Positions 5,274 to 30,667 of a stretch of 64,000 nt of DNA are shown here, in pieces (within the stretch, counting starts at the first letter, position 1; each line of letters begins with the position of its first letter). Below the pieces are notes generated by a model. That model did no database searches, had not been told where the DNA came from, and saw nothing but the letters and a program-made list of their open reading frames with translations. The stretch comes from an uncultured Gemmatimonadota bacterium (GTDB lineage: Bacteria; Gemmatimonadota; Gemmatimonadetes; Gemmatimonadales; Gemmatimonadaceae). The stretch spans positions 310,001-374,000 of the forward strand of contig CADEFN010000003.1 of NCBI GenBank assembly GCA_902826615.1, in the 5' to 3' direction. Position numbers and translations under genes: made by a program.

Positions 5274-6437
5274 CTAACTCCTGGCGTACAACTCCCGCGC
5301 GATGACGATGCGCTGGATTTCCGACGTCCCCTCGTAGATCTCGGTGACCTTCGCGTCGCGGAAGAGCCGCTCGACGGGATACTCCTTCACGTAGCCGTAG
5401 CCACCAAAAATCTGAATGGCCTGCGTGGTGACCCACATGGCGGTCTCGGTGGCCTGCAGCTTGGCCATCGAGGCAAACTGGGTGACGGGCTCACCGCGAT
5501 CCTTGGCCGACGCCGCAGCATAGAGCAGCGCGCGCGACGAGGTGACCCGCGTGGCCATGTCAGCAAGCTTGAACTGGACGCCCTGAAACTCCTTGATGGG
5601 TTTGCCGAATTGCTTGCGCTCCGCAGCGTACGCCACCGAATGCTCGAGTGCAGCCCGGGCAATCCCGATAGCCTGCGCACTGATACCTAAACGGCCATTG
5701 TCGAGCGACTGCATGGCATAGACAAAGCCCATCCCTTCCTCGCCGAGCAGGTTGGCCTTTGGCACACGGAGGCCATCGAGCACGAGCTGCACAGTTGGAT
5801 CACCACGCAGCCCCATCTTGTCTTCCTTCTTCCCGATATGCAGCCCCGGCATGTCCGGGGTCAGGATGAAGGTACTGATGCCGCGCGCCCCTTTGCGTTC
5901 CCCCGGCGTGTCGGTGCGAGCCATGCACAGGATGACGTCGGCCATGGAGCCATGTGACACCCACGCCTTGGTGCCTTCCAGGACGTAGTGATCGCCGTCT
6001 TTTGTGGCCTGCGCCCGCAATGAGGCCGCATCAGAGCCTGCCTCGGGCTCGGACAGAGCAAAGGCGCCTAACAACTCACCCCGTGCCATCCCCTTGAGGT
6101 AGCGATCCTTCTGCTCGGCGCTGCCCCAGCGCAGGATCATCTGCGTGGGGAGCGAATTGTGCACGCTCATGAGCACCGCGACCGAGGCGTCGACCGCGGC
6201 GATTTCCTCGAGGGCAACGAGATAGGTGCAGGTATCGAGTCCCTGCCCATCATACTCCTCGGGGATCATCATGCCGAGAAAGCCGAGGGCGGCGAGTTTG
6301 CCCACCACCTCCCGATCGAACGACGCATCACGATCCCAACGCACACTATGCGGCGCCAGCTCGGCGCGCGCAAACGATCGCGCGGCCTGCTGAATGGCCC
6401 TCTGTTCTTCAGTGAGAGGTATCAGTGCCCAGGACAT
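5274..6437 (-). CDS. Acyl-CoA dehydrogenase (short/branched chain type)
   Basis: 387 residues, normal for FAD-dependent acyl-CoA dehydrogenases, which introduce the alpha-beta double bond and pass electrons to ETF. The FAD/substrate signature [12 protein letters not shown], the FAD-binding [16 protein letters not shown] and the C-terminal [14 protein letters not shown] are present; the glutamate in YEGTSE is the catalytic base position of short-chain enzymes. The gene starts 3 bp after the 3-hydroxyacyl-CoA dehydrogenase gene ends. Butyryl-CoA, isobutyryl-CoA or isovaleryl-CoA would all fit; sequence alone does not decide. Confidence 0.92.
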
Positions 6438-27941: not shown

Positions 27942-28074
27942 GCCTAACGATTCGGTCCTGCAGCGGCCGCGGGTAAACAAAGCCCCGCCCCGCGCCGGAC
28001 CCGAAGTGCAACATGCCGCGCAGGGCGGGGCCTGCCAAGTCTCAGCGGCCGCCTGCAGCAACCGTGTGTTAGGC
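27942..28074 (-). other. attC-like cassette recombination site
   Basis: The site is bounded by GCCTAAC (27942-27948) and GTTAGGC (28068-28074), the exact RYYYAAC and GTTRRRY core boxes of integron attC sites. Inside these boxes, CTGCAGCGGCCGC on the left pairs with GCGGCCGCCTGCAG on the right, with one extra unpaired base as is normal in attC arms. The total of 133 bp is within the known attC size range. Orientation (minus) is inferred from the neighbouring gene. No integrase gene is in view. Confidence 0.8.
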
Positions 28075-28190
28075 ATCATCTGGCGCCCACGCCCAGTCTC
28101 GCTCCACTTCGTTTCGCGCCGGAATCGCGTGAAACTGGGCCGTGATTCGCAAAAGTGGGCGGCGAACGCAGGTCGGATCGTCGCTTCGAA

Positions 28191-28282
28191 GTCCAACGTG
28201 GACGCGGCGCTCATGAGTCGGTGCCACGTCCCCAGTGAGCTTCAGATCGACTCGCGTCGGGCCCTCGAGCGCATGGTTAGGG
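28191..28282 (-). other. Possible degenerate attC site after the SRPBCC gene
   Basis: On the minus strand, CCCTAAC (28282-28276) lies 1 nt after the SRPBCC stop codon, the classical place for the R'' box, and GTTGGAC (28197-28191) fits GTTRRRY. The arms share GCGCTC with GAGCGC only partly, with unequal spacers. If real, the 115 bp between this site and the attC at 27942-28074 would be a cassette without a gene. Confidence 0.35.
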
Positions 28283-28283
28283 A

Positions 28284-28742
28284 TCACCGTGCGCCCATAG
28301 CCGCCGCTATGAGCTCTGCTTTGGCACGTACAAGACCTGCCGATTTCCCTGACTCGATAAGCGTCTTCAAGTCGCACAGGACTATAGAGAAACCTTCGGT
28401 TGTGTTCACAATCTGTTCGACTAAGTCGTCACCTGCGGAGCCTTGTGCCTCCACTGCAACTTTTGTCTTGCCGTCCGAATGCGCGGAGAACGTAAGTCGG
28501 GTGTTCGAGCCGTCAGACCAGTTGAATGCGATTACTGCTCCGGGTTCAAACTCTGTAACCGTGATCGTGTCTGCTACGCCCGGCACCATGAAGCGCCAAG
28601 TGACCTTGGCGGCCCTTGAGAGATGTCCGCTTGCTGCGCTAAGCCAGAACTGCGTGATCCTGTCTGGATGGGCGAACGCATCGAATGCGACGCTGGGTTG
28701 GCAGGTGATAAGTTGCGAAACCTTCACGACGAAGTTGGTCAT
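28284..28742 (-). CDS. SRPBCC (AHSA1-like) domain protein in a gene cassette
   Basis: 152 residues. The START/AHSA1-like fold is suggested by ITCQPSVAFDAFAHPDRITQ at the start, then FEPGAVIAFNWSDGS, LTFSAHSDGKTKVAVEAQGS and a long C-terminal helix. Such domains bind hydrophobic ligands or act as stress-related cochaperones. Third codon positions are visibly less GC-rich than in neighbouring genes (many GCA, ACA, CTT, GTA, ATA codons), a sign of transfer. The ATG is 46 bp from a GTTAGGC core box upstream and the stop is followed by attC-like sequence, so it fits a mobile cassette gene. Confidence 0.75.
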   Translation of the reverse strand: MTNFVVKVSQLITCQPSVAFDAFAHPDRITQFWLSAASGHLSRAAKVTWRFMVPGVADTITVTEFEPGAVIAFNWSDGSNTRLTFSAHSDGKTKVAVEAQGSAGDDLVEQIVNTTEGFSIVLCDLKTLIESGKSAGLVRAKAELIAAAMGAR

Positions 28743-28788
28743 ATCGGGACTCCAAGACGTTGCCGGTGCGCGGAGGGTCTTCGGTGCT

Positions 28789-28879
28789 GCCTAACGACCT
28801 GTGTTCAGCAGCGTGGCTCTATCATAAGATGGCGGCGTGGCCGCCTTCAAGACCGCCACGACTGCTGCAACACATTGAT
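28789..28879 (-). other. attC-like site, split by the insertion sequence (left part)
   Basis: GCCTAAC (28789-28795) is followed by an arm TGTTCAGCAGCGTGGC that pairs with GCCACGACTGCTGCAACA near 28855-28873, with two extra bases on one side. The distal core box is missing here. It appears beyond the insertion sequence as GTTATGC (30192-30198). Joined, the site would be a complete attC of about 100 bp. It follows the lipoprotein gene at 30224-30667 in the minus-strand reading. Confidence 0.7.
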
Positions 28880-28937
28880 ATTCCCAACGAGGCCTAACGA
28901 TGACAGCTTCGACGTCCCTCGCATGGGAGCGTGTTTC

Positions 28938-29984
28938 ATGTTGTACTCCGGGATCGACCTGCACAAGCGGACCGTCGCCATCCATACCCTGGACGAGGCC
29001 GGCACCGTCGTGCGGCAAGCTGACCTCCCGACGGAGCGGGCGGTGATCACCGCCTACTTCGCCACCCTCCCCGGCCCGCATCAAGCCGTCGTCGAGTGCA
29101 CCGGCATGTGGTACTGGCTCCGCGACCTCCTCGTGCCCCTGGGGATTGACCTGCGGCTCGGCCACGCCAAGTATCTCAAGGCCATCAGCTACGCCAAGGT
29201 GAAGACCGATGCGGTCGATGCGGCCACGCTGGCCCAGCTCCTCCGCGTCCAGCTCGTCCCGGAGGCGCACATGATCAGCGACGCGCATCGCGAGATCCGC
29301 GATGTGCTCCGGGCGCGCTTGCTGCTGGTGGGCCGGACGCTGCGGTGTCAGCGCAGCATCGGCGCGCTCCTCGAGAAGTACAACGTCACCACGCCCGCCC
29401 AGCTGCCGGACCTCCCCCGCCTGCAGGCCGACCTGCACGCCGCCCAGGGGACACTGCTCAAGACCCACGTGCGCCGACTGGAGCACGAGCTGCGCGATCG
29501 CGTGCTGGCCACCCCCGCAGCGCAGCGGTTGGTGTGGGTGCCCGGGATCGGGAAAATGGTCGCCTACACGCTCCTGCTGGAGATTGATGACATTCACCGC
29601 TTCCCGTCGGTCCGGCACTTTCACTCCTACTGCCGGCTGGTGCCAGGGTCGGCGAACTCGGGTGGGAAGACCAAACACAAACGCTCGCGGGACGGCAACC
29701 GCTACCTCAAAATGGCGTTTCACTTCGCCGCCATTCGGGCCATCCAGTACGTCCCGGAGATCCGGGCGGAGTTTCAGCGTCTGCAGCGCCGCAAAGGGAA
29801 ACCCATCGCGCGGGCGCTCATCGCCAAAGAGCTCGCGACGATCGTCTACGCCATGCTCACCAAGGAGACGGCCTTCAATGGACACTTCCGTGGACACCAC
29901 CTAACGCGCACCAAGCGATGCACGTGGCCCCGACTGGCAAGCCCGCCCGGCATAACTGATGCCTCCGAGGCGCCTCCACATTGA
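28938..29984 (+). CDS. IS110/IS1111-family transposase (DEDD)
   Basis: 348 residues from the ATG at 28938. The N-terminal DEDD (RuvC-like) domain starts MLYSGIDLHKRTVAIHTLDE with the first Asp, then VVECTGMWYWL with a Glu and KTDAVDAATLAQLL with the paired Asp residues. A coiled central part leads to the C-terminal Transposase_20 domain: LVWVPGIGKMVAYTLLLEID, SYCRLVPGSANSGGKTKH (with the conserved Ser) and GNRYLKMAFHFAA. It is intact, with no frameshift. The last ~17 codons overlap the putative guide part of the right-end RNA, so the natural C-terminus may vary with the guide. Confidence 0.93.
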   Translation: MLYSGIDLHKRTVAIHTLDEAGTVVRQADLPTERAVITAYFATLPGPHQAVVECTGMWYWLRDLLVPLGIDLRLGHAKYLKAISYAKVKTDAVDAATLAQLLRVQLVPEAHMISDAHREIRDVLRARLLLVGRTLRCQRSIGALLEKYNVTTPAQLPDLPRLQADLHAAQGTLLKTHVRRLEHELRDRVLATPAAQRLVWVPGIGKMVAYTLLLEIDDIHRFPSVRHFHSYCRLVPGSANSGGKTKHKRSRDGNRYLKMAFHFAAIRAIQYVPEIRAEFQRLQRRKGKPIARALIAKELATIVYAMLTKETAFNGHFRGHHLTRTKRCTWPRLASPPGITDASEAPPH

Positions 29985-30175
29985 TTGGGAAGCCAGCCGG
30001 TGCGTCGACCGTGAACATCTGAGCCCACTCGGCTCGCAGGACTGTGTGACCGCCACGCGCCGCGTGGATGGTCGATGCGATGCATGCGCGACGTCCGCCA
30101 ACGTGCTGTACGGCCGGATCACCTAAGGGAGCGACGCTTCGCCACTCCCCGGGGTGCGCTACGCGCTCTTGACAG
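29940..30175 (+). ncRNA. Putative seekRNA/bridge RNA of the IS1111 element
   Basis: The right end of IS1111-group elements encodes the RNA that selects the target. Here CGGCATAAC (29948-29956) is the reverse complement of the right flank GTTATGCCG (30192-30200), and CACATTGAT (29977-29985) is identical to the left flank (28871-28879). The two 9-mers are separated by a small hairpin GCCTC/GAGGC, the expected layout of a target-binding loop. Further hairpins follow (CCACGC/GCGTGG near 30050; GGGAG/CTCCC near 30127-30150). RNA ends and the donor-binding loop could not be set. Confidence 0.6.
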
Positions 30176-30223
30176 AAGCCTCGTTAGGACTGTTATGCCG
30201 CGCTTTCGCGCAGCCTTCAGGGT

Positions 30224-30667
30224 TCATCCGAGGCGCGTCAGAACGACGTGCGTGCGCGAGCCACCGGCGTTGTACGATGGACATCCTCCCTCGAACCGAG
30301 AGTAACGAGCCTCCGTCGTGACCTCCTTGGCCACGTAGCCGGCCGCTGTCGCACGAAAGGTATAGCGCCCTTCGGAGGTGCCGAAGCCGCAGGACACCGT
30401 ACACACCAGCGTGTCCCCGACTATGCGGGCGCCGAAGGATGGGGCGAGAAGGTTGGCGGGCGACACGCCTTGGTCTCCGACGGTGATCTCGGTTAGAAAG
30501 AGGACGCCAATTCGCGATCCACTCGCGGCGTCGGCAGCCGAGGCGATGACCGGGATGGGATCACGATAGGTGTGCTCACATCCTCCGGCGCCAAGAGCCG
30601 AACACCCGACGCCGAAAAGCAATACGGGCGCGAGGTGTCCTGCGAGTTCCCTGATGGTGCGCGTCAC
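30224..30667 (-). CDS. Hypothetical lipoprotein, possible cassette gene
   Basis: 147 residues from a GTG at 30667. The N-terminus has a hydrophobic stretch with cysteine (HLAPVLLFGVGCSALG) that may be a lipobox. The remainder reads as a beta-sandwich: GSRIGVLFLTEITVGD, GDTLVCTVSCGFGTSEGRY, TFRATAAGYVAKEVTTEARY, with four cysteines. It resembles carboxypeptidase-regulatory or Ig-like domains found in lipoproteins. The stop lies 26 nt before the GTTATGC box of the interrupted attC, so it can be read as the gene of that cassette, although no upstream core box was found before the WYL gene. Confidence 0.6.
   Translation of the reverse strand: MTRTIRELAGHLAPVLLFGVGCSALGAGGCEHTYRDPIPVIASAADAASGSRIGVLFLTEITVGDQGVSPANLLAPSFGARIVGDTLVCTVSCGFGTSEGRYTFRATAAGYVAKEVTTEARYSRFEGGCPSYNAGGSRTHVVLTRLG

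Follow-up and report, generated by a model that had tools for sequence, protein, structure and literature searches.

ISKpn4 and ISPst6 are published IS1111 elements that target integron attC sites and are guided by a seekRNA (PMC11187229). Elements of this family have sub-terminal inverted repeats (sTIRs) of ~11-13 bp with extensions of 7 (or 6) bp on the left and 3 bp on the right, and a longer noncoding region 3' of the transposase gene, tnp (PMC11187229). The layout of the guides has been shown experimentally in published elements (PMC11187229, PMC11208160). Here, we describe an IS1111-type element in a 64-kb stretch of DNA (the window, meaning the whole stretch analyzed) from a Gemmatimonadota host, and propose that a predicted seekRNA or bridge RNA made from its 3' noncoding end very probably steers its DEDD transposase to the integron attC sites of the host.

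An intact IS1111-type element interrupts an integron attC site

The element (Table 1) is an intact IS1111-family insertion sequence, which we infer to be active. Its transposase contains both IS110-family Pfam domains, DEDD_Tnp_IS110 and Transposase_20, and its PDB sequence matches are ISCro4 and IS621 (E about 1e-7). Residues D7, E53, D91, D94, and S241 are present in the translation and were assigned by analogy with IS621-type enzymes. By the features of the IS1111 family, we recognized sTIRs of 11-12 bp (CCCAACGAGGC and GCCTCGTTAGG) with left and right extensions of 7 and 2 bp, or 6 and 3 bp if the shared T on the right is counted, and a noncoding stretch that is longer downstream of tnp (206 nt) than upstream (62 nt). 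A first-pass annotation of the sequence had called an intact IS1111-type element, and the domains, the sTIRs with their 7-bp left extension, and the longer downstream noncoding end all support that call. We note that in a circular form of the element, GATATT at 28877-28882 would fall 17 nt past the TTGACA box near the right end, giving a promoter-like pair (TTGACA-17-GATATT).

Excision of the element restores a 95-nt integron attC without gaps. When 28791-28875 is joined to 30191-30198, the product aligns gaplessly over 93 nt, 86 of them identical (88/95 once the two outer bases are included), with an uninterrupted sister attC (L080:15018-15112) that lies in an integron on contig C16 of the same genome. 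Comparison of the rejoined flanks with this sister places the true left boundary at 28875/28876 and reveals no target duplication; a T is common to 28876 and 30191, and 28877-30191 are hence equivalent boundaries. The dinucleotide TG is common to the target (CACAT-TG-TTATGCC) and the element (GGAC-TG-ATATT). The element adjoins the attC R'' box, 1 nt before its GTTAT, with the transposase oriented against the cassette genes, and a genome-wide search with the 15-bp target gave the sister attC as the best match, with one mismatch. The target is readable, as the first-pass annotation had held, but its identity as an attC, which the rejoined flanks establish, had been missed.

The surrounding region (27942-30667) is a short cassette array of attC sites and minus-strand genes. 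An integron integrase gene was not found in the 64-kb window; those of the same genome are on contigs C2 and C16. The host genome has only one intact copy of the element, plus fragments, and so offers a single insertion of that very copy. A truncated left end of a related element (L051, G000:C2 near 5562-5684) lies at GCAACCCAC/TGATATT (GCAACCCAC/TGATATTCCC); it represents a second insertion in the host genome that occupies the same position in attC but has a different flank, one equal to the attC at L080:12538.

Table 1. Coordinates of the element, its predicted RNA segments, and the interrupted cassette array (window positions)
Feature	Position	Strand	Basis
Adjacent intact attC, 133 nt, same cassette array	27942..28074	-	
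Cassette gene, AHSA1-domain protein, 152 aa	28284..28742	-	
R' side of interrupted attC up to insertion point	28789..28875	-	R' box GTTAGGC, complement of 28789-28795
IS1111-type element, 1315 bp	28876..30190	+	Excision gives gapless alignment to sister attC L080:15018-15112
Left terminal extension TGATATT (7 bp)	28876..28882	+	TGATRTT kept in most relatives
Left sTIR CCCAACGAGGC	28883..28893	+	
DEDD transposase (recombinase), 348 aa, D7/E53/D91/D94 and S241	28938..29984	+	Pfam, translation, PDB relatives
5' arm of target-loop stem, CCGACTGGC	29930..29938	+	Covarying stem
5' guide (right target guide) CGGCATAAC	29948..29956	+	Complementary to right flank
Tip hairpin between guides (GCCT/AGGC)	29961..29971	+	Sequence; similar hairpins at same place in relatives
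3' guide (left target guide) CACAT plus TG	29977..29983	+	Has left-flank sequence
3' arm of target-loop stem, GCCAGCCGG	29992..30000	+	Covarying stem
Possible donor guide to left end, GAACATC	30013..30019	+	Complementary to GATGTTC, which has one mismatch to the left end of the window element (GATATTC); sequence comparison only, weak
Probable donor guide AGGACTG	30038..30044	+	Identical to right-end/left-end circle junction AGGAC-TG
TTGACA, -35-like box near right end	30169..30174	+	Circle junction sequence
Right sTIR GCCTCGTTAGG	30178..30188	+	
R'' side of interrupted attC	30191..30198	-	R'' box GCATAAC, complement of 30192-30198
Cassette ORF whose attC was interrupted, 147 aa, without Pfam family	30224..30667	-	

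Two segments of the 3' end match the two sides of the target

The right flank GTTATGCCG (30192-30200) recurs as its reverse complement in the 5' guide, and CACATTGAT is present both at the left junction (28871-28879) and at 29977-29985. Both matches had been reported as ending at exactly 9 nt, and they are exact in the sequence. The right 9-mer is target throughout; the left one had been taken as flank in full, but its target part is the 7-nt CACATTG, including the TG common to target and element, and the final AT belongs to the left end of the element. TGAT is kept in nearly all relatives, both at the left end and in the RNA. The hairpin between the segments lies where it had been placed, but written as GCCTC/GAGGC it leaves a 1-nt loop, and the realistic form is a GCCT/AGGC stem that closes a loop of 3 nt. 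The segments match the target on either side and on either strand, with the top-strand match 5' of the bottom-strand match, as in seekRNAs and bridge RNAs.

This arrangement suggests a mechanism in which the RNA, bound by the transposase, would use its target loop to bind the attC R''/L'' end on either side, CGGCATAAC pairing with the top strand at the right and CACAT-TG with the bottom strand at the left. A second loop would probably pair with the circle junction of the element, AGGAC-TG, and the circle would recombine at the TG common to element and target, leaving no target duplication.

A trivial explanation is that the matches are chance resemblances within an ordinary IS110-family element; the words are short, and a third copy of each 9-mer lies elsewhere in the window, making three occurrences of each in 64 kb (0.36 and 0.34 expected). 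Nonetheless, by composition the 9-mers are expected only about 0.0004 and 0.0017 times in the 260-nt noncoding end, and CACATTG alone 0.015 times, and the matches have the right order, are on the right strands, and are repeated in relatives. We regard chance as having a negligible likelihood, and it was rejected on the relatives, whose guide-flank covariation (below) contradicts it.

The guides overlap the end of the transposase gene. In related elements (L007, L008, and the G034 copies L044-L046), the transposase stop TAA belongs to the 5' guide (TAACTG). In the window element, an extra base puts TAA out of frame, and the protein is 10 codons longer, running through both guides to a TGA after CACAT. 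Together, the relatives' stop and this extension support the earlier proposal that the guide overlaps the transposase tail and that a guide change alters the protein end. Since TAA comes from the 5' guide, guide changes can add or remove the stop.

Guides covary with flanks in related Gemmatimonadota elements

Related elements are present in other Gemmatimonadota, with transposases 46-78% identical to that of the window element; none was found in a scan of IMG/VR. L007, L008, the three G034 copies, L050, L047, and L048 sit at GTTAG or GTTAT, and a decayed element, L059, sits at GTCAG. The position and orientation within attC are thus common to clade members, and empty sites were found: uninterrupted attC sites in G034 read CGCCTCGTTGGGC and similar, and these define where the elements of that group inserted.

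The first-pass annotation had predicted that the guide should covary with the flanks, and it does. Permutation of guides against flanks in nine related elements, L058 (below) among them, gave p values of 0.0004 (left), 0.007 (right), and 1e-4 (both), although kinship among the elements is not fully removed and these values are a guide rather than exact. On the left, the 5-mers CACAT, CGCAA, and CGTGC are each matched 5/5 by the element's own guide and poorly by most others. Against guidance, right guides match at only 6-8 of 9 positions in several relatives, and the G034-type left match requires a one-base shift and a G-U pair. The G034 copies L044-L046 are three identical copies with one guide in three attC sites, whose right flanks share GTTAG plus part of the rest; part of the guide therefore tolerates mismatch, and these copies provide a natural measure of the tolerance. 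One guide at different sites is a pattern that the first-pass annotation had regarded as counting against guidance; it does occur here, but GTTAG is kept, and guidance is not refuted. L058 (G300:C78) belongs to the same clade (transposase 46% identical) and has a 9/9 right guide match to its flank, GTTGCCGCG; no attC was seen at its insertion site, which is palindromic. This likely represents natural retargeting.

An alternative is that the transposase itself recognizes the attC sequence or hairpin, with the matching RNA segments being remnants, for example of flank captured by imprecise excision. attC sites do form hairpins, and all of the attC-located relatives share GTTAG, which is partly matched by a near-constant element motif, CTAACTG. 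However, direct recognition does not account for a left 5-mer that varies among close relatives, each with its own 5/5 guide, or for L058, which outside attC has a guide to its own, different flank. Moreover, the guides lie inside a covarying stem, and published IS1111 elements require RNA (PMC11187229). We therefore consider direct recognition improbable, and favor guidance by the predicted RNA.

RNA architecture and a candidate donor-binding loop

In the stem enclosing the guide loop, 68 of the 72 cells counted across relatives are paired (5e-5 by arm-swap permutation), and pairing is kept through two-sided changes (CTGGC/GCCAG, CGGGC/GCCCG, CTCGC/GCGAG, and CTGGT/ACCAG). MAFFT set the 3' arm 1-2 bases off, and pairs were counted on hand-registered arms; L048 and L059 were omitted from the count, as their arms defied registration. 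In its minimum-energy fold, the window RNA lacked the tip hairpin and had a stability no greater than that of shuffled sequences (z -0.34), and an Rfam search of the element matched no family. It is covariation among the relatives, not a single-sequence fold, that supports the structure. The first-pass view of an IS1111-type element with guide-like segments flanking a hairpin is upheld.

Further downstream, AGGACTG equals the circle junction, and is thus likely to belong to a donor-binding loop, judging by sequence identity. The corresponding segment matches the junction 7/7 in seven of eight related elements and 6/7 in one, and in the G034 sister group the right end and the RNA segment have both switched to AATGGTG. 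The arrangement agrees with the layout of the IS621 donor-binding loop (PMC11208160). A less likely reading is that, although the element is guided, AGGACTG is not a donor guide but a conserved part of the structure or regulation whose likeness to the right end is due to descent. The sequences fall into just two main classes, AGGAC and AATGG, perhaps reflecting one evolutionary switch, and the left end has only a weak partner donor guide, with one mismatch in the window element and a poor match in G034 types. Nonetheless, right end and RNA segment switch together, and the match spans the core TG on the strand expected from IS621, and these points speak against that reading.

Relationship to known systems

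The Gemmatimonadota clade is new, in that its transposase in the window shares only 23% identity with the one encoded by an ISPa21-like copy (NZ_CP041734), it stands apart from that copy in the tree, and its insertion lies 5 nt from that copy's attC position. We lean toward the view, with some reserve, that it constitutes a second attC-targeting lineage of IS1111 elements with an evolutionary origin of its own. This lineage would use another register of the same attC end, have a guide tuned to the host attC subclass (GCATAAC versus GCCTAAC), and have been re-aimed between attC and a non-attC site within the clade (L058). That guides and flanks covary in a natural lineage, most of it uncultured, is independent evidence for the seekRNA/bridge-RNA model from beyond the Proteobacteria, where it was worked out. 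The element also adds a further recombinase whose target can be read, as can probably its donor. attC sites are the common currency of integrons, and the findings suggest that RNA-guided elements have reached them more than once; in doing so, they split the attC and may freeze cassettes in place.

The window element shares with the IS1111-attC group (ISKpn4, ISPst6, ISPa21, and ISPa25) the IS1111 anatomy, insertion at one end of attC, and two guide segments around a hairpin 3' of tnp. The ISPa21-like copy, the sole known member compared, likewise has its transposase opposite to the cassettes and two guides around a hairpin, showing TAACAAT and TTGAACG. The guide sequences differ, as do the hosts, and the ISPa21-like copy sits 6 nt before the GTTAG of R'', as judged against an intact aadA-type attC of the same plasmid, whereas for the window element the distance to GTTAT is 1 nt. 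In a tree of 20 sequences, from which ISKpn4, ISPst6, and ISPa25 are absent, the ISPa21-like protein groups with IS4321, and the Gemmatimonadota clade is separated from them (100/100 support). Within this small sampling, separate branches and registers 5 nt apart suggest that attC targeting arose at least twice. The plasmid pK245, which we had presumed to be the source of ISKpn4, was dropped from the comparison, its IS110-family gene not being in an attC, and several other plasmid relatives that we examined were not in integrons.

Similarities extend to more distant systems. IS4321/IS5075, which target Tn21 ends, belong to the same IS1111 family but have a different target and a transposase about 23% identical. 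The IS110-group bridge RNA elements IS621 and ISCro4 share the DEDD transposase family, bipartite guides, and a shared core dinucleotide (CT there, TG here), whereas the window element differs from them in having its RNA downstream of tnp, long sTIRs, and an attC target.
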